A DNA stretch of 32,532 bases, from assembly GCA_017515595.1 (NCBI GenBank), contig JAFWFL010000033.1, positions 1 to 32,532 of the forward strand. Direction: 5' to 3'. The notes below the pieces were generated by a model. That model did not search any database. It was not told where the DNA came from and worked only from the letters and a program-made list of their open reading frames with translations. The translations under genes were made by a program, and so were the position numbers. Below, piece by piece: positions 6,298 to 29,299 of the stretch. The DNA comes from Coriobacteriales bacterium (GTDB lineage: Bacteria; Actinomycetota; Coriobacteriia; Coriobacteriales; UMGS124). The first letter of the stretch is position 1; each line of letters opens with the position of its first letter.

Positions 6298-7752
6298 CTA
6301 CAAGCTGGCAATGTTGCTTGCGGCGAGGTAGCCTGAGGTTGCGCAGTAGGCGAGGTTGATGCCAAACTTCAGGGTGTAGGGGTAGTTTACGCCAAAGAAG
6401 CCGCTTGAGCTGTTGCCGGCTGCATAGAGGCCCTGAACAGGGAGAAGGTCTGCGCCAAGTACCTGGAGCTTGCCGTTTACGAGCGGGCCGCCAATAACGG
6501 TTGCCCAGCCGCCGCGGCTTGGCTTGCAGTGGTAAGGAGGCGTATCGAGCTTCATGGCAAGCGAGACATCCAAGCCATACAGCTCGTCAACGCCGGCATC
6601 GCACATGGCGTTCCAGTCAGCAATGGTTTTGGTGAAGCGTACGGGGTCAAAGCCAAAGTCGGCTGTCATAGCCTCAAACGAGTCATAATCTGCGAGAACC
6701 ATGTTGGGGTCTTCCGGAGCGATATCCTCGGGATATCCTTCCTTGCTGTCAGTGATGCAGAAGGTCATGTGTCCAGGGCGCCTCATGACAATCTGGGTAC
6801 GGGCGTCAAAGTTCAGCATGTCGGCGTGGTCAGGCAAGCGGTCGCCAGCTCCGTCAACAAAGAGAATGCCCTCAACGCCGTCGAGGAAGCCAATCTCGGG
6901 GGTATGAGGTACCGGGCCAATAGCAAGACCAAATTGCTCACACATGGTAATCGCGTCGCCGTCAAGTGCGCCAAGGGGAGCGGTGGGGAGGTCAAGGTCA
7001 ATGGCATCAGGGTCAAGCCATGGAATAAATCTGCGGAGATAATCATTGTTGGCGACATAACCGCCTGTTGCAAGAATAACGCCCTTCTTGGCAACAAAAT
7101 AAACATCTGCGTCATTTACGGTATCATGGGCGATCACGCCGGTGCATACGTTGCCGTCCATTGCGAGCTGGATAGCAGGCATATTGTAGATAATCTCGGC
7201 ACCGTTCTCTTCAGCATATGAGATATACATGCTGTAATGGTCAGCAATCTGGTAAGAGCTGTCACTCGGAGAAAGGATGACGGGGTTGTCGTACTTCTCG
7301 GCCATAGCTACCAGCCAGTCGCCAACAACGGGGCTTGCCTTAATAAAGTTGCGGTAAAGTTCGGGATTGCCCATACCGTCGTTCTTAACGATGAGGTCCG
7401 AGAGGAACTGCTCCTCGTCATAGGTCTCGGCACCGGCCTCGGTCAGAGCTTTGGTGTTAATAAAACCATAGTTAAAGCCGCCTGAAGAAGATTCGTCACG
7501 CTTCTCGATGCAGGCAACCTTGAGGCCTTCCTCGGCAGCCTTACATGCAGCGCTCAGGCCGCAAACGCCTGATCCGCAAATAACAACGTCGTACTCACGC
7601 ACATCGGCAATAGATGCTGCGTCAATGAGCTCAACAGCAGCGGGCTGTGCCTCATCTGCGATAGCAGATACCGTTGCGGGAAGGATGGCTGACATACCGG
7701 CTGCAACACCGGCACCTTTAACAAACGTACGCCTTGAAACTGCATTCTCCAT
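6298..7752 (-). CDS. Tat-exported FAD-dependent reductase (fumarate/urocanate reductase family)
   Basis: A 484-residue flavoprotein related to the flavin subunit of soluble fumarate reductases. The Tat signal carries SRRTFVKG (6-13), a hydrophobic stretch and a likely cleavage after VSA (about 30). FAD binding is shown by GSGVCGLSA (60-68) and the C-terminal LYAAGNSSSGFFG block. No CxxCH heme motif or FMN-binding domain is present, so electrons must arrive from a separate cytochrome or other carrier. The acceptor cannot be told; family members in Eggerthella-type bacteria reduce various organic acids. It is shorter than the two other reductases here (541 and 551 residues) and clearly divergent from them. 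ATG 7752 follows AAGGGAG. It is transcribed away from a LytTR two-component pair 259 bp off, the likely regulator. Confidence 0.9.
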   Translation of the reverse strand: MENAVSRRTFVKGAGVAAGMSAILPATVSAIADEAQPAAVELIDAASIADVREYDVVICGSGVCGLSAACKAAEEGLKVACIEKRDESSSGGFNYGFINTKALTEAGAETYDEEQFLSDLIVKNDGMGNPELYRNFIKASPVVGDWLVAMAEKYDNPVILSPSDSSYQIADHYSMYISYAEENGAEIIYNMPAIQLAMDGNVCTGVIAHDTVNDADVYFVAKKGVILATGGYVANNDYLRRFIPWLDPDAIDLDLPTAPLGALDGDAITMCEQFGLAIGPVPHTPEIGFLDGVEGILFVDGAGDRLPDHADMLNFDARTQIVMRRPGHMTFCITDSKEGYPEDIAPEDPNMVLADYDSFEAMTADFGFDPVRFTKTIADWNAMCDAGVDELYGLDVSLAMKLDTPPYHCKPSRGGWATVIGGPLVNGKLQVLGADLLPVQGLYAAGNSSSGFFGVNYPYTLKFGINLAYCATSGYLAASNIASL

Positions 7753-7777
7753 GATAACTCCCTTCGTGACATTATGG

Positions 7778-7802
7778 ACAAGAGCTGCAGAATCGCTCTT
7801 GT
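7778..7802 (-). promoter_or_regulatory. Hairpin in the leader of the 6298-7752 reductase gene
   Basis: ACAAGAGC (7778-7785) and GCTCTTGT (7795-7802) form a perfect 8-bp stem with a 9-nt loop, 26 bases upstream of the reductase start codon. It could be an mRNA structure affecting translation or stability, or a dyad operator. No family match is known to me. Confidence 0.4.
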
Positions 7803-7847
7803 GTTACACCTTAACACCGTGTGCGTGCAAACGTAAAGTCTTTGGAG

Positions 7848-7877
7848 ACAGTTGGGCGGCTCCTGATGATAACTGGG
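7848..7877 (+). promoter_or_regulatory. Candidate LytTR-regulator binding site
   Basis: ACAGTTGGG (7848-7856) fits the known LytTR half-site pattern [TA][AC][CA]GTTN[AG][TG]. A weaker copy, ATAACTGGG (7869-7877), starts 21 bp later, two helical turns, the usual spacing of LytTR direct repeats. The pair lies in the 259-bp gap between the reductase and the LytTR regulator. Only one half-site matches the pattern fully. Confidence 0.4.
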
Positions 7878-8011
7878 TATGAGTCTGCTTCTCCATTCAG
7901 TATTGCACGACTATAATGTTCACTACGGTTTCCTGTGTGTAGCCGTACCTTTTGGCTATGGTTTGTACCAGGCCGGCATCGCGGCGTAACCGTCTGCGTT
8001 TTGGAGGTAAA

Positions 8012-8716
8012 ATGACCCGGATTGTGCTTGCTGAGGATCACGCAGAAGACAGGCTTACTGTCTGTGCGTTGATAGACCGCTATTACAAAAGTCATGGCAT
8101 CCGCGGTGATTACGTGTGCTTTGAAAACGGTGAGGAGCTTCTGAATTCGTGTTCCTTTGACGTTGACCTCTTTTTGCTCGATATCGAGATGCCCCGTCTT
8201 AACGGCCTTGAATGTGCTCACCGTATTAGGCAGCGTGACCCAAATGTACCTCTGTGTTTCTTAACCAACCTTGCGCAGCTCGCCCCTGCGGGCTACGAGG
8301 TTGACGCCATGGGATTTCTCATTAAGCCGGTTTCTTATGGAATGCTCGATCGGATCATTACGCGCGCATTAAACAAAGCCCGTCATCATCGCAGCGCGTT
8401 ACTCCAGCTCAAAGAAGGTAAAAATTCCCGCTATGTGGATGCGCACTCAATTACCTATGTCGAAACGGTTGGCAAACATACAAGGGTCCATGCAGATTCA
8501 GGCAGCTTTGACTGCGGAGACACCCTCAAAGCCATAGAGCTTGCTGCAGGGGAAGGATTCTATCGAATTCACAACGCCTACCTTGTCAATCTTGACCGCA
8601 TTGAAAGCGCGACTCAAACTGAGGTCATGGTTGCAAATGAGCGTCTCCCCTTAAGCAAACACCGCCGCAAAGACTTCTTTAAAGCTCTTTCTTCTTATAT
8701 CGGAGGTCTGGTATGA
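8012..8716 (+). CDS. LytTR-family response regulator
   Basis: A 234-residue cytoplasmic regulator. The receiver domain (1-125) has the acidic pocket ED at 8-9, phosphoacceptor D57 in FLLDIEMP, T85 and K105 in GFLIKPV. The output domain (about 134-232) is LytTR type, with GKNSRYVDAHSITYVETVGKHTRVHADSG early, YRIHNAYLVNLDRIE centrally and LPLSKHRRKDFF near the end, as in AgrA/LytR-class activators that bind paired 9-bp direct repeats. An upstream in-frame ATG (7952) exists, but TTGGAGGTAAAATG marks 8012 as the start. It overlaps the kinase gene by 4 bases (ATGA), so the pair is translationally coupled. The divergent reductase is the probable target. Confidence 0.93.
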   Translation: MTRIVLAEDHAEDRLTVCALIDRYYKSHGIRGDYVCFENGEELLNSCSFDVDLFLLDIEMPRLNGLECAHRIRQRDPNVPLCFLTNLAQLAPAGYEVDAMGFLIKPVSYGMLDRIITRALNKARHHRSALLQLKEGKNSRYVDAHSITYVETVGKHTRVHADSGSFDCGDTLKAIELAAGEGFYRIHNAYLVNLDRIESATQTEVMVANERLPLSKHRRKDFFKALSSYIGGLV

Positions 8717-10026
8717 TCACAGTACTTCTCCTTGATTTTACTCATCCGGTGTGGCTGCTTGCTTCTTTGGCAGAGATCGCGGTCCTGTTCTTTTTTGTTC
8801 GTGGTATTGAGTATCGCAATCCTTCTATGCATGTTTGCGATATTGCACTCTTGGGAGTGCGGCATGTTATTCGTATTCTGCGCCAGGATGTGTTCATTGA
8901 TTTTGTACTTTGCATTGCGGCATTTTTTGTCTATTTACGTATTGCGCGCCGCACAAACGGCCAACAGGCGCTTTTACTCTCAGGCTTGTTTGAACTTGCC
9001 ATTGACGTAGGTAAAACGGTGTGTGTTGATCTTATTATGCAGCCTATGGCCGGCTTTTTTACACCGCTTGGTTCTGTTGCTATTACCCTGTGCTGGATCA
9101 TTTTTTCTCTTGCCATCTCTTTGGTTATCCTTGTTGTGGCAAGTAAATGGCTCCATAGCGAGTCAATTGCACGGCTCAGCTGGGGTCAATGTGTCACGGC
9201 TCTTTTGCCTCTCATACCCTATGTGCTTATCAGGCAGTTTGAGATTGATAACGCGCTTAATACCTATGAGATATATCAAGAAATGATGCAGGTCACACTA
9301 GCTATTGGACTTACAACCATCATCTCGTTGGTGGCTGTTGCGAGCGGTCTCACAACGCAAGCTGAGCACAACGAGCTTCTTCGCATGCAGGCATTGTTGC
9401 GAGAACAGCACGCACAGTATCTTGCTCAAAAGGAAGCTGAGACGCAGATTCGTGCTCAATACCACGACCTTAAGCACTTCATTACTGAAATTGATGCCAT
9501 CACCGCGGGTGACCAGAGAACAGATAACCTTAAAGCATATGCAACACGAGTTCGGGAAGAACTTGAACCCTTGGAAACTCGTATAGAAACAGGCAACGAA
9601 GTTCTCGATATTCTCCTGACCGAGAAACGCAATACGTGTATCAAAAAGGATATTGTGCCTGTGTTTTATGTTGATGCGGCCCATCTTGGTTTTGTTAATG
9701 ACCTTGACCTCTGCGCGCTATTTGGGAACATCGTTGATAATGCGCTTGAGGCAGCATCAAAAGTTCTTCTTGAGGAACACCCCGAGATTGAACTTGATGT
9801 AAGACAAATCCATCAAATGAGCGTTACACGCTGCACCAATCCCTATGTAGGAGAGCTCTTGCGCTGCGAAGACGGTCTCGCAACCACAAAGCGTGAAGAC
9901 ACAGAAAACCACGGTTACGGTCTGAGAAGTATCCAGATGGTTGCAAGCAGATATAATGGAGAAGTAGTATGGGACGCCCAAGACGGCCTGTTCACCCTAA
10001 CCGTCATTATCCCCTTACCCCGCTGA
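8713..10026 (+). CDS. AgrC-like sensor histidine kinase (GHKL)
   Basis: A 437-residue membrane kinase. The N-terminal half has about five or six hydrophobic helices (near residues 12-30, 62-77, 85-105, 118-145, 160-175 and 195-212) and would sense a signal at or within the membrane. A linker with coiled-coil character (216-248) leads to the H-box AQYHDLKHFI (H251), then the N-box NIVDNALEA (N343) and the G-box HGYGLRSIQ (400-408) of a GHKL ATPase. This is the architecture of kinases that partner LytTR regulators; many sense peptides, but no peptide precursor gene is visible here. The start codon overlaps the regulator stop (ATGA), preceded by GGAGG. The gene ends 180 bp before the Phd/RelE-type module. 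Confidence 0.92.
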   Translation: MITVLLLDFTHPVWLLASLAEIAVLFFFVRGIEYRNPSMHVCDIALLGVRHVIRILRQDVFIDFVLCIAAFFVYLRIARRTNGQQALLLSGLFELAIDVGKTVCVDLIMQPMAGFFTPLGSVAITLCWIIFSLAISLVILVVASKWLHSESIARLSWGQCVTALLPLIPYVLIRQFEIDNALNTYEIYQEMMQVTLAIGLTTIISLVAVASGLTTQAEHNELLRMQALLREQHAQYLAQKEAETQIRAQYHDLKHFITEIDAITAGDQRTDNLKAYATRVREELEPLETRIETGNEVLDILLTEKRNTCIKKDIVPVFYVDAAHLGFVNDLDLCALFGNIVDNALEAASKVLLEEHPEIELDVRQIHQMSVTRCTNPYVGELLRCEDGLATTKREDTENHGYGLRSIQMVASRYNGEVVWDAQDGLFTLTVIIPLPR

Positions 10027-24457: not shown

Positions 24458-24617
24458 ACAATTCATCCCATTTGTTTACGGAATGGTATGGGAGTTGTAA
24501 TAAGTTTGATATATTCCAGTAATACGCATGTTATAGGCTGAGCATAAACTAAATCCTGAAGTTAATATCGCAGAACAGCGGATCTCACTTGAGCATGGTA
24601 TGAGCGGAGGGGTTTGT

Positions 24618-27191
24618 ATGGCAGCCTTTGAGAAAACCGAGTCGGGAATCCCCATGATGGATGAAGCACTGCAGTATATCCGTCTTGGAGATAATGTTGT
24701 TTGGCAGGTGCCTTCGCTCGAGGAGTTCAAGATTGTTGCCGAGCGCTTTGCTGACCAGGCAATTAAGGATCACCGGAACCTCATTTATATTCGCTTTGCA
24801 GAGCATGAACCAATTCTCACTCCGCGTCCGGGACTGAGAATAGAGCAGGTCGAGCTTTCGCATTTGTTCGAAACCTTCACGGTAAACATTCATAACATCA
24901 TTGAGCGCGAAGGCTATGATGCCTTTTATGTGTTTGACTGTCTCTCAGAGCTCGAAGAAGCCTGGGCAACTGACCTTATGATGGGTAACTTCTTCCATCT
25001 GACCTGCCCGTATCTGTTTATCCTTGATACCGTTGCGTACTTCCCCATTATCAGAGGCAGGCATTCGTTTGACGCGATCGCAACCATTCGCGATACAACT
25101 CAGCTGTTCCTCGATGTTTACGCTGATGATGAAGGGTGCTTTGTGCGCCCCATGAAGGTATGGAACCGCTATTCGCAAACCATGTTCCAGCCGTACCGGC
25201 TCAATAAAAATACGCTCGAGTTCAGTCTCTTAGCAGACAGTACTGAGGTTAGCAGGTTCTACAGTGTTATGAACAAGGCGTCTCAGGAGGCGCTTGATCA
25301 AAACCAGGACAGCTGGGAGCGCTTCTTCAGGCGTACGGAGTTGCTGTATGATAACGGTATTGATGTAACAAATGAATGCGCAAGAATTTGCGATATTATG
25401 CTGACGAGAGACCCGCGCATGCGCGAGCTGATTAAGCAGAACTTTACCCCTAAAGACTACTTTGAAGTTCACTCGCGCATGGTAGGAACAGGCATGATAG
25501 GCGGTAAAGCATGCGGCATGCTGCTTTCGCGAAAGATTGTCGAGAACTACCGGCCAGATATCTTTGCCCGTTTTGAGCCCCATGATTCTTACTATATTGG
25601 GTCTGATGTGTTCTACGCCTATATTGTTGACAACGGGTTCTGGGATCTTCGCATTAAGCAGCGTACCGAGGAAGGCTATTTTACGCTCGCGAGCCAGTTT
25701 GAAGAATGCATCATGAAGGGAAAATTCTCGGCAAAAATTGAGGCGGAATTCCGCCGGATTCTTGACTACTACGGGAACGACCCGGTTATTGTGCGCTCAA
25801 GCTCGATACTTGAGGACGGGTTTGGCAATGCGTTTGCCGGCAAATACGAATCAGTATTCTGCGGAAACCAGGGTACGGACGAGGAACGCCTGCAAAAGTT
25901 TGAAGAAGCGGTACAGACGGTGTATGCGAGTACCATGAGCCTCTCCGCCTTGGATTACCGTAAGCGCCGCGGCCTTGACCAGCGCGATGAACAGATGGCG
26001 ATTCTTGTCCAGCGCGTGTCGGGTTCGCGTTACGGTTCGTTCTTTATGCCGTGTGCGGCATGCGTGGGTTACTCGGCAAGTCCTTACAGAATGGATGCCG
26101 CAAAACCGGAGTCGGGAATGTTGCGCCTGGTCATGGGCCTTGGTACGGCTGCCGTTGACCGCAGGACCGGCTCGTACCCCAGAATGGTTTCTCTGGATGC
26201 ACCAACGCGTGTTATTACCACAACCGTCTCTGACCGCCAGCAGTACTCCCAGAGAATTGTGGACGCCATCAACCTGGAGACCGGCGAAGTTGAAGGATAC
26301 AACCCGTTGGCCATGGGCGAAGCGCTGCCAGATTACCTCAAGAAGCTGCTGCTTTCTCATAATTACGAAACAGAAGCCCGCCTGAGAGAGCAAGGAGAAC
26401 GCCGGGAAGTTCTGTTTGTGACCTGCGACGGTCTCACAAAGAACACCGCGCTTATGACCGACATGCGCGATATTCTCGACCTGATCCAAGCCCATTACGA
26501 GTACCCTGTAGATACCGAGTACACCATTAACCTTGCCCGCGACGGCAGCTACGTAATTGACCTCCTTCAATGCCGGCCGCTCCAGCTCACGGCTGAAGGT
26601 GACAAAGTAAAATTCCCGGAGCAAGTAAGTGCCGAGAATATCCTGCTCGAAACACAAGGTGTTTCTATGGGCTTCTCAAGAAAGATTAAGCTTGATATTG
26701 TTGTTCATATTGATCCCATTGGGTATTACCAAATGCCCTATCGCACAAAATACGAGATCAAAAAAGCACTCTCAGAAACAAACTGGCATTACCGCGGCCA
26801 AGGCAAGCACATGCTGCTTCTCACGCCGGGAAGAATTTGCACATCTTCTCCTGAGTTAGGTGTACCGTCCGCATTCTCGGATATCAGCGAGTTTTCTACC
26901 ATTGCAGAAGTCTCGGAGTCTAAAGCAGGCTACATTCCCGAGCTCAGCTACGGCAGCCATATCTTCCAGGACCTCGTAGAAGCAGGTATTCTTTATACTG
27001 CCGTTTTTGAAGCCCAAAGCACCGTCGCGTATCATCCTGACTTGCTCGGCAACACAAGCGATATAACAGAAGAAATAACCAGTCTGCCTGATGAAATAAA
27101 AGGCATCCTGCGCGTATACGACGTTTCGAATACTGACCTCTATCTTTACTATGACATGGGAGAAGAACGCCTGCAGATATGCTGGGCATAA
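24618..27191 (+). CDS. PEP/pyruvate-binding-domain protein (PEP synthase N-domain family) with a RecA/KaiC-like N-terminus
   Basis: An 857-residue cytoplasmic protein. Residues 15-165 resemble a RecA/KaiC-like fold without a Walker A loop; YDAFYVFDCLSEL (100-112) looks like its Walker B strand. Residues 285-690 resemble the ATP-grasp pyruvate/ATP-binding domain of PEP synthase/PPDK, with MIGGKACGMLLS (293-304), PVIVRSSSILED (389-400) and FAGKYESVF (406-414). The swivelling phosphohistidine domain and PEP-binding barrel of a full PEP synthase are not seen, so it cannot run the complete PEP-forming reaction alone. It may phosphorylate another substrate, as rifampin phosphotransferase relatives do, or need a partner. 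ATG 24618 follows GGAGGGG. It follows the GNAT scrap and ends at a terminator. Confidence 0.85.
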   Translation: MAAFEKTESGIPMMDEALQYIRLGDNVVWQVPSLEEFKIVAERFADQAIKDHRNLIYIRFAEHEPILTPRPGLRIEQVELSHLFETFTVNIHNIIEREGYDAFYVFDCLSELEEAWATDLMMGNFFHLTCPYLFILDTVAYFPIIRGRHSFDAIATIRDTTQLFLDVYADDEGCFVRPMKVWNRYSQTMFQPYRLNKNTLEFSLLADSTEVSRFYSVMNKASQEALDQNQDSWERFFRRTELLYDNGIDVTNECARICDIMLTRDPRMRELIKQNFTPKDYFEVHSRMVGTGMIGGKACGMLLSRKIVENYRPDIFARFEPHDSYYIGSDVFYAYIVDNGFWDLRIKQRTEEGYFTLASQFEECIMKGKFSAKIEAEFRRILDYYGNDPVIVRSSSILEDGFGNAFAGKYESVFCGNQGTDEERLQKFEEAVQTVYASTMSLSALDYRKRRGLDQRDEQMAILVQRVSGSRYGSFFMPCAACVGYSASPYRMDAAKPESGMLRLVMGLGTAAVDRRTGSYPRMVSLDAPTRVITTTVSDRQQYSQRIVDAINLETGEVEGYNPLAMGEALPDYLKKLLLSHNYETEARLREQGERREVLFVTCDGLTKNTALMTDMRDILDLIQAHYEYPVDTEYTINLARDGSYVIDLLQCRPLQLTAEGDKVKFPEQVSAENILLETQGVSMGFSRKIKLDIVVHIDPIGYYQMPYRTKYEIKKALSETNWHYRGQGKHMLLLTPGRICTSSPELGVPSAFSDISEFSTIAEVSESKAGYIPELSYGSHIFQDLVEAGILYTAVFEAQSTVAYHPDLLGNTSDITEEITSLPDEIKGILRVYDVSNTDLYLYYDMGEERLQICWA

Positions 27192-27214
27192 TGAAGATGG
27201 CTGCTTAAACAATG

Positions 27215-27253
27215 CCGAGAAACCCTTGCGAGCGAAATGCAAGGGTTTCTCGG
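27215..27253. terminator. Strong hairpin between convergent genes
   Basis: CCGAGAAACCCTTGC (27215-27229) and its exact complement (27239-27253) form a 15-bp stem with a 9-nt loop, placed between the PEP-domain gene stop and the stop of the minus-strand CARF-HEPN-like gene. T runs are short, but the position suits bidirectional termination. Confidence 0.8.
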
Positions 27254-27285
27254 TATGCTCGTATTTCATACAACCGGTGAGCAGA

Positions 27286-29133
27286 TTATCGATTGGTCCT
27301 TTCGAGCCGGCGGGCTTTTGATTTTACTTCTTCTGTAGTAATCTGAACAACAGTAGGGTTTTTACCGGCGATCTTGTTAAGAACTATGTCATAAGCCCGG
27401 ATAAAGTACTGTATGCTTTCTTGTATCACGATGAGCTTGGCGCTTATATCTTTCTCTTCAGTGGACGGCGTACCGTTTTTATAATAGCTATCGCTCGCAT
27501 GATTGGTCTTGTTGCGCACATGACCAATATGAAGATACGCGAACAGCAGGTCTTCGAGCGCCTGTCTGTCATCACATGCCGAATACGCGGTTACAATATC
27601 AGGATTGGTATTATCCAAACCGGCAACCAGGTCTTGCGCATTCTCTCTCTGGTACTCGTTGGTAGTTGACGGATGATTAAGGCGAATATAGTTTTTCACA
27701 AAATAGTGACCCAGATCATCCATTTTCCAGTATTCAGAGGGCTTCATCTTATTGCGTGTCCGGGCAAACAGCTCGGTTACCCTATCTTTGTCGTTCTCAT
27801 TGTTGCAGTAATAGAATATACCCCGGTTTACCATATCAAGTGGCGCTTTGGCTTCAATTATGGTCAGGCACGGCTGATAGAAACCTTTTGAATAAGCCCA
27901 TTTGACCAGATCAATAAAGCCGGCGTCAGAAGCGGTGACAAGGCGTCCATAGTCCTTTTTGATGCCTTCTGACATAAGAATAAAGAGCTTGCTGTAATAA
28001 TCGCTATTGCTGAGATCGAACCCGTTCATAAACAGTTCGCGCAGACTTATGATACCTTTTTCTATATCTCCTATGCAGCACAGCGAAAGTCCGGTATCAA
28101 TGTACCTCATAGCATATATCATCTTGTCAATCTGATCGTTTTTGGCGTGGCTGTGCTCCCAGAAATCGACAATCATATCGACCTTGCCGTATTTGAGAAA
28201 CGCTCTTGAGGCAGTTACAAGGGACGCCATTCCGTAGCCTTCTGAGTCATCTCTGATCATTCCAGCCAGCTTGTAGTGTGCGTTGGTTGTGGTGTAGACC
28301 TTTATGAGCTCAAATTTGCTTCCGTACAATGTGTCGAGAATATCAAGCAAAGCCAGCAAGACAAAGTTGTCTGTCATGTCATCATTATTGAGCGCGATGT
28401 ACATATTAATGCTGTCATGTTTCTCCGCAACAATATCTTGACCGAGCTTCATAAGGGTATCCATGGGGAGCTTGCCGGCTTCGCCAACCATTGTGGGAAC
28501 AAATCTCACCTTTGCACCCTCGTTGTCCTCGAGGATTTCCAGCTTACCGGAGTCCTTGAGGTTCATATACAGATAGTTCTTGACCCATGATAAATAAATC
28601 TCTTGTTTTTCTGCGGCACCGGGAACTGTCTCTATGAGTTCTTTCTTCAGCTCGTCATACAACGAGGTATCCTGCACGAGCTTGTCAAAGAATCTGGCGA
28701 ACTTGCTCTCATCCTTGCCGGCGTTTGTTTTGTCATAAAAGTTCTTAATAAAAGCTTCTGTTTTTGCTTGTTCCTCAGAAGACAACTGATTGTTGATAGT
28801 CTCCAGTTCTGTCTTTAAATCATCTTTGAACTGAGACAGCCTATATCTGAACAGGCTGTATGTTGACAGTTCGTTTATATCTGAAGTGTAGAATGATTTG
28901 CCGTCATCAACGCCAAGCACTCTTTGATCATCACCAACGTCAAAAGTCAGCTGCCTGCCGAGTATCATAATCTCGTCTATGTGATGCCGGGACAGAATGT
29001 ACTTTGTTGTGGCTTCTACCGTGAGCATCGCATCAGTATAGAGCCTTCTTTCGCCTTCTGTTGCATAGTAATAGCGAAGCGGCTCATCTTTACCGGCGGC
29101 ATACAGTGATGTGAATAAGATATTGTAAGCCAT
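27286..29133 (-). CDS. CARF-HEPN-like protein (TM1812/Csx1-type), no CRISPR context
   Basis: A 615-residue soluble protein. The N-terminus AYNILFTSLYAAGKDEPLRYYY followed by a helix and HIDEIMILGR resembles the CARF ligand-binding fold of TM1812/Csx1 proteins. A second half of that fold appears near SINMYIALNNDDM and ELIKVYTTTNAH, followed by SRAFLKYGKVDMIVDF. The C-terminal helical domain has HVRNKTNHAS, an R-x4-H motif (R540, H545) of HEPN ribonucleases, which in Csx1-like proteins is switched on by cyclic oligoadenylate. No cas gene or repeat array lies in the window, so the activating signal is unknown. ATG 29133 follows GGAAGG; ATG 29160 overlaps the stop of a 42-codon frame (ATGA) and is the other candidate start. 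Family assignment is by motif and remains tentative. Confidence 0.65.
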   Translation of the reverse strand: MAYNILFTSLYAAGKDEPLRYYYATEGERRLYTDAMLTVEATTKYILSRHHIDEIMILGRQLTFDVGDDQRVLGVDDGKSFYTSDINELSTYSLFRYRLSQFKDDLKTELETINNQLSSEEQAKTEAFIKNFYDKTNAGKDESKFARFFDKLVQDTSLYDELKKELIETVPGAAEKQEIYLSWVKNYLYMNLKDSGKLEILEDNEGAKVRFVPTMVGEAGKLPMDTLMKLGQDIVAEKHDSINMYIALNNDDMTDNFVLLALLDILDTLYGSKFELIKVYTTTNAHYKLAGMIRDDSEGYGMASLVTASRAFLKYGKVDMIVDFWEHSHAKNDQIDKMIYAMRYIDTGLSLCCIGDIEKGIISLRELFMNGFDLSNSDYYSKLFILMSEGIKKDYGRLVTASDAGFIDLVKWAYSKGFYQPCLTIIEAKAPLDMVNRGIFYYCNNENDKDRVTELFARTRNKMKPSEYWKMDDLGHYFVKNYIRLNHPSTTNEYQRENAQDLVAGLDNTNPDIVTAYSACDDRQALEDLLFAYLHIGHVRNKTNHASDSYYKNGTPSTEEKDISAKLIVIQESIQYFIRAYDIVLNKIAGKNPTVVQITTEEVKSKARRLERTNR

Positions 29134-29156
29134 TACGTATTCCTTCCGGCTCAGAG

Positions 29157-29285
29157 TCATGCAACGTCTGTGGTGCTGTTGTACAACACGTAGTATATAC
29201 CTCTTGCCTCCATAAAGATGTATCCGGTCTTCTCGGCAACAAAGCGAATATAAGAAACCCGGGCGGGATTGTCTTTTAAGAACAA
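29157..29285 (-). CDS. Possible 42-residue ORF upstream of the CARF-HEPN-like gene
   Basis: A minus-strand frame from TTG 29285 reads (M)FLKDNPARVSYIRFVAEKT, then GYIFMEARGIYYVLYNSTTD and VA, stopping at TGA 29159-29157. That TGA overlaps an in-frame ATG (29160) of the CARF-HEPN-like gene. The amino-acid pattern looks protein-like, with alternating aromatic and hydrophobic residues. The start lacks an ATG and the 5' part overlaps a hairpin, so it could equally be the tail of a lost gene. No family is recognised. Confidence 0.3.
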   Translation of the reverse strand: MFLKDNPARVSYIRFVAEKTGYIFMEARGIYYVLYNSTTDVA

Positions 29286-29299
29286 TACCGCCCGGGTTT
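29255..29299 (-). terminator. Terminator-like hairpin after the surface-protein gene
   Basis: AAACCCGGGCGG (29255-29266) pairs with CCGCCCGGGTTT (29288-29299), and inner ATTGT/ACAAT (29268-29272 with 29282-29286) lengthens the stem. It begins 26 bp past the surface-protein stop on the minus strand. The stem is very stable but the following T run is weak (TTTCTTAT). Confidence 0.8.

Follow-up and report, generated by a model that had tools for sequence, protein, structure and literature searches.

A stand-alone CARF-HEPN protein with an altered CARF pocket, encoded away from type III CRISPR loci in a Coriobacteriales bacterium

The window, i.e., the whole 32,532-nucleotide stretch of DNA that was analysed, corresponds to the entire contig C60 of a 3.3 Mb genome (98% complete, 134 contigs), whose gene content resembles that of a Coriobacteria-type anaerobe. 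Its minus strand harbours a real gene for a 615-aa protein at 27286-29133 (stop codon included), flanked by a convergent gene for a PPDK_N-domain protein and an upstream gene for a PASTA/Big_2 protein (Pfam domains). In line with the preliminary description, neither cas genes nor CRISPR arrays with 4 or more repeats were found in the window. The locus comprises the following features:

27286..29133, minus strand: stand-alone CARF-HEPN gene, 615 aa
28234..29133, minus strand: N-terminal Rossmann-like CARF domain, residues 1-300 approximately, containing a helical insert around residues 75-190 (AF2)
27289..28233, minus strand: helical middle part followed by the C-terminal HEPN domain, residues 301-615 approximately (PADLOC match to residues 300-600, AF2)
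27499..27516, minus strand: HEPN catalytic motif R540-N-K-T-N-H545 (R, N and H invariant in 15 proteins; helix H523-544)
28363..28392, minus strand: altered strand-4 loop, residues 248-257 (LNNDDMTDNF), DxTGGxR in the outgroup (alignments)
27212..27256, no strand assigned (scored on the plus strand): 19-pair inverted repeat between the convergent PPDK_N-domain and CARF-HEPN genes, likely a terminator
29258..29296, minus strand: GC-rich terminator-like hairpin following the upstream PASTA/Big_2 gene, minus-strand sequence CCCGGGCGGTATTGTTC...GACAATCCCGCCCGGGTTTCTT (read from the sequence; a simple scan does not list it)

By mechanical call, the longest open frame starts at 29160 and encodes 624 aa. 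We nevertheless favour the 615-aa form, as chosen in the preliminary description, because the starts of homologues agree with the ATG at 29133 and because GGAAGGAA lies upstream of it; the corresponding N-terminus reads MAYNIL and is preceded by GGAAGGAATACGTA. The stretch 29134-29285, previously counted in with the gene, is intergenic and contains the terminator-like hairpin that separates the PASTA/Big_2 gene from the CARF-HEPN gene. Since hairpins lie on both sides, the CARF-HEPN gene looks monocistronic as judged from the sequence. A 42-codon upstream frame, which had been suggested as a translationally coupled partner, is not credible: its TTG start lies inside the strong terminator-like hairpin, and it ends before the 615-aa start, overlapping only the 624-aa form. 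The convergent neighbour (24600-27191) encodes an 863-aa protein whose match is confined to the ATP-binding domain of PEP synthase/PPDK; the roughly 300 residues that precede this domain are devoid of Pfam matches. A PADLOC "Cyclase" match of this neighbour (51 residues, E 6e-4) was judged to be due to chance, since the same protein matches PPDK_N at 1e-41.

The 615-aa protein was confirmed to be a CARF-HEPN protein. Searches against Pfam and NCBIfam as well as a sequence search against the PDB returned no match, and therefore the assignment rests on PADLOC, profile-profile and structural comparisons; a PHROGs search gave only weak, biologically unconvincing matches. The PADLOC model CARF2--CARF_HEPN matches the protein with an E-value of 9.8e-19, and the PADLOC Csx1/Csm6 model matches residues 300-600 (E 6.9e-12). 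Furthermore, a profile of the stand-alone clade described below was aligned by hhalign with a profile of four CARF-HEPN proteins outside this clade (three from type III loci and one, L012, from elsewhere), resulting in a 99.4% match (E 1e-21) that begins at CARF strand 4 and runs through to the HEPN motif. The Pfam family Csx1_HEPN (PF09455) was matched neither by the protein nor elsewhere in the host genome. This is weak evidence against Csx1/Csm6 membership, since the related type III proteins L011 and L018 likewise lack a Pfam match.

In an AF2 model based on 11 alignment rows (pLDDT 81), the N-terminal domain is of the Rossmann type, its strands 5 and 6 forming a hairpin, and an all-helical C-terminal part follows. 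The predicted order of elements is E3-10, H38-49, E54-59, helices within 75-190, E208-213, H224-236, E242-248, H253-268, E274-282 and E291-295, with the HEPN helix at H523-544; confidence in the CARF loop region is moderate (pLDDT about 60-70). The definition of CARF domains asks for the last two strands to form a hairpin (PMC4012209), and the model fits this definition. The helical insert, which spans about 115 residues inside the CARF domain, is absent from the aligned CARF-HEPN proteins outside the clade. A Foldseek search against the PDB ranked Marinitoga Csx1-Crn2 (8y7g/8y6z) first (E 9.4e-7, probability 1.00) and Thermus Csm6 (5fsh/8jbb) next, with ranks 1 to 10 all being CARF-HEPN proteins or CARF parts, at modest TM-scores of 0.39/0.43. 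A first AF2 model from 6 rows (pLDDT 69) already placed Csm6/Csx1-Crn2 first, but with E-values above 0.001; the addition of type III relatives to the alignment led to the pLDDT of 81 and a Foldseek E of 9e-7. Together, the PADLOC CARF models, the AF2 topology and the Foldseek matches bear out the CARF-like N-terminal fold that had been proposed from the sequence.

A scan of 85,000 species genomes revealed four clostridial relatives with 46-50% identity. Genome sampling added one further relative in the order of the window (in G337, 35% identity), five further clostridial relatives (in G712, G865, G889, G894 and G868), and distant CARF-HEPN proteins inside true type III loci of G242, G426 and G739 as well as one in G272 (L012) without a cas locus in the 11 kb read; a full-length member was present in 2 of 398, 2 of 391 and 5 of 188 genomes sampled. 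In a tree of 15 proteins, comprising ten stand-alone members and five outgroup proteins, the stand-alone proteins form one clade (support 100/100, 100% of bootstrap trees), with long branches and few rows limiting the placement of the root. Clade members originate from Coriobacteria-like and clostridial genomes and are 30-50% identical. Another relative, L004, belongs here by sequence, yet it was left out of the tree and of the ten, since the N-terminal residues are encoded by unrelated DNA and the contig is probably chimeric: in L004 1-1371, a GC-rich stretch appears to be joined inside the CARF-HEPN frame at the equivalent of residue 117. All 15 proteins share the HEPN residues R540, N541 and H545, and the stand-alone ten have the motif RNxxNHA in common. 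The R-x4-H motif is therefore not a chance occurrence, and the RNKTNH motif noted earlier is indeed located at residues 540-545.

Among the outgroup loci, the type III CRISPR locus of G242 (L011/L021, contig C19) belongs to a genome from the window's own order. Besides arrays and an RT-Cas1 fusion (RVT_1 and Cas1), it contains two CARF-HEPN genes, one on each strand. The type III CARF-HEPN protein encoded at L019 3918-5636 carries an extra C-terminal domain that, by eye, may represent a ring-nuclease (Csx15/Csx20-like) fusion.

The clade differs from these proteins in its CARF pocket. A conserved signature, [DN]x[ST]xxx[RK], follows strand 4 of CARF domains (PMC4012209), and all 5 outgroup proteins fit it (DMTGGMR, DVSGAQR, DTTGGPR, DITGGQR and DITHSFR). 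According to the alignment, the signature is absent from the window protein and its nine relatives, the basic residue being lost in 10 of 10 clade members and kept in 5 of 5 outgroup proteins. The clade loops are of two types, both devoid of a basic residue: LNNDDMTDN, LHSEDAADS, LHSDDPTDN and IHNEDSFDS on the one hand, and DMQGLETSA, DLQGLEASA, DMQGLESSA and DMQGMGSIN on the other. Conserved acidic or polar residues were gained in the pocket, LNNDD/LHSED being typical of the first sub-clade and DMQGLE of the second.

The loss of the signature is compatible with a sensor-less or toxin-antitoxin HEPN RNase in which the CARF domain is reduced to a degenerate scaffold and control is exerted at the level of expression or through a partner, either protein or RNA; HEPN domains are common as toxins (PMC3710099). 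Two clade members (L043 8913-10949 and L044 9233-11368) have C-terminal tails that are long and rich in RG/RGG, which is uncommon in bacterial proteins, and the composition of these tails, suggestive of RNA binding, would suit such control as well. However, the CARF residues T8, E40, K44, D53, E54, G59 and Y245 are invariant in 10 of 10 members, and for one close pair (L001 and L002), dN/dS is about 0.07 for the whole protein, 0.11 for the CARF part and 0.04 for the HEPN part. The protein therefore appears to be maintained, its sensor domain included, and this purifying selection argues against decay. As for an adjacent partner such as an MNT antitoxin, the neighbourhoods read show no recurrent small gene. 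We consider a sensor-less RNase distinctly unlikely.

The genomic surroundings differ among the members, and cas genes were found beside none of the ten in the DNA read around them. A MATE exporter gene adjoins the CARF-HEPN gene in 5 of 10 members from three lineages (L001, L002, L043, L044 and L045; 23-76 bp away, upstream on the same strand in four and divergent in one), and an ABC exporter gene does so in 2 of 10. These neighbours, the ordinary chromosomal settings of the clostridial members (conserved between L043 and L044) and the lack of relatives in the phage, plasmid and viral-contig collections searched would fit a housekeeping RNA-processing or stress regulator devoid of a defence role, e.g., one tied to membrane exporters. 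Since MATE genes are common, their adjacency is a lead only, and none neighbours the window gene; furthermore, the patchy spread over the genomes sampled is unlike that of a housekeeping gene. Such a role is, in our view, highly improbable.

The host genome contains a type I-C CRISPR locus (L033, G000:C5) with cas3, cas5c, cas8c, cas7, cas1 and probably cas4. It also contains a type II locus (L034, G000:C134), which comprises cas1 and the gene for a 1409-aa Cas9 as well as, judged by eye, cas2 and csn2. Neither type I-C nor type II systems are known to make cyclic oligoadenylates. Cas10 was found in the host genome neither with TIGR02578, PF22335 and TIGR02577 nor with a tailored profile built with Cas10 sequences from the two closest type III loci. 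The tailored profile also found nothing in six other stand-alone genomes searched (G865, G868, G889 and G894 lay outside this search), several member genomes being incomplete metagenome assemblies. It recovered both source genomes as positive controls and missed the more distant Cas10 of G739, which marks its reach as limited. A SMODS/CD-NTase query of the host genome was empty as well, and no mCpol polymerase gene adjoins the window gene or occurs in the neighbourhoods read.

These searches bear on a further explanation, namely that the protein is an ordinary Csx1-type effector that still binds cyclic oligoadenylates, supplied by a cyclase elsewhere (a divergent Cas10, mCpol or a CD-NTase) or via a gained type III system. 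Its fold and HEPN motif are the same as those of type III effectors, stand-alone CARF genes and mCpol/CARF-HEPN modules have been described (PMC4012209, PMC8730458), and T8 is conserved throughout the ten members at the end of strand 1, a place where CARF pockets are lined by alcohol residues; moreover, some CARF domains may bind cyclic oligoadenylates without exactly that basic residue. Against this stand the basic pocket residue lost in 10 of 10 members and the empty queries in the host (four for Cas10, one for SMODS/CD-NTase) and in the six other member genomes, with both controls found. We therefore regard a canonical Csx1-type effector as rather unlikely, and the earlier suggestion that the protein uses a cyclase elsewhere is unsupported, with mCpol having been looked at in the neighbourhoods only.

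In our view, the protein is probably a solitary sensor-gated HEPN ribonuclease, derived from or sister to Csx1, whose CARF domain has been retuned to a ligand other than a canonical cyclic oligoadenylate. Given the same architecture and the intact catalytic motif, a ligand-gated RNase is the simplest reading; the ligand is probably non-canonical because the basic residue is lost, acidic or polar residues replace it, the gene is solitary and no cyclase was found by the Cas10 and SMODS queries of the host. The preliminary description had placed a CARF-HEPN protein away from type III CRISPR and allowed for its answering another signal, and the PADLOC, hhalign, AF2/Foldseek, motif, clade and Cas10 results agree with this. 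In type III systems, CARF-HEPN proteins work as dimers, and their HEPN site becomes active once the CARF domains have bound cyclic oligoadenylate (PMC11229360). We infer the ligand, the dimer, the RNase activity and the role of the window protein. By analogy with Csx1/Csm6, its N-terminal CARF-type sensor would be connected through the helical region to the C-terminal HEPN ribonuclease, and in the presumed dimer, a small ligand in the CARF pocket would open the HEPN site, so that RNA would be cut and growth stalled. The trigger would probably be an endogenous stress or infection ligand, candidates being cyclic-ended RNA fragments, as in the case of the RtcR CARF domain, or some other nucleotide.

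It is conceivable, though we would give it somewhat less than even chances, that the whole family has left CRISPR signalling and constitutes a one-gene sensor-effector for a new ligand that is not a cyclic oligoadenylate, by which a single ligand-gated protein would bring about dormancy under stress or abortive infection in anaerobes of the gut and rumen; RNA ends arising from phage attack or tRNA damage would be examples of such ligands. In the literature searched, we found no description of this family and its shared pocket change; an earlier mention is possible. The usual, almost automatic reading of a CARF domain is that of a cyclic-oligoadenylate sensor. With its ribonuclease kept, its pocket altered and its host devoid of a detected Cas10, this single protein makes the question of what else CARF domains sense directly testable, and it may provide a new ligand-switched RNase for defence biology or diagnostics.

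Among known systems, Csx1/Csm6 (Marinitoga Csx1-Crn2, Thermus Csm6) share with the window protein the CARF and HEPN architecture, R-x4-H and the middle helical region, as reflected by the 99.4% profile-profile match to CARF-HEPN proteins, most of them in type III loci. In contrast to them, the window protein comes without a type III locus or a detectable Cas10, lacks the strand-4 basic residue and any Pfam or NCBIfam match, and contains the CARF insert of about 115 residues. The RNA-repair regulator RtcR, compared here by description only, likewise has a CARF domain outside CRISPR, and its family mostly lacks the basic residue after strand 4 (PMC4012209); however, RtcR fuses CARF to an AAA+ ATPase and an HTH domain rather than to HEPN. 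In the abortive-infection module of mCpol and a CARF-HEPN protein (PMC8730458), the effector likewise occurs without a full CRISPR system, whereas the window gene has no adjoining polymerase gene.

Defence roles outside type III CRISPR have been proposed for CARF genes linked to McrBC/CoCoNuT systems as well (PMC11090510), but the window gene lacks an McrB-like neighbour. A possible case of such a CoCoNuT-like association is L012 (G272:C39:131000-142332), which does not belong to the clade and has retained the basic residue: its CARF-HEPN gene (6979-8808), with an intact DxTGGxR pocket, adjoins a large partner gene and a gene for a coiled-coil AAA+ protein in which McrB-like motifs were recognised by eye and which has no Pfam match, while cas genes were absent from the 11 kb read and Cas10 from the G272 genome by two queries. 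Finally, stand-alone CARF-nuclease genes unlinked to CRISPR have been noted earlier (PMC3710099, PMC4012209); those are scattered cases, whereas the proteins described here form a monophyletic family with a shared change of the pocket.
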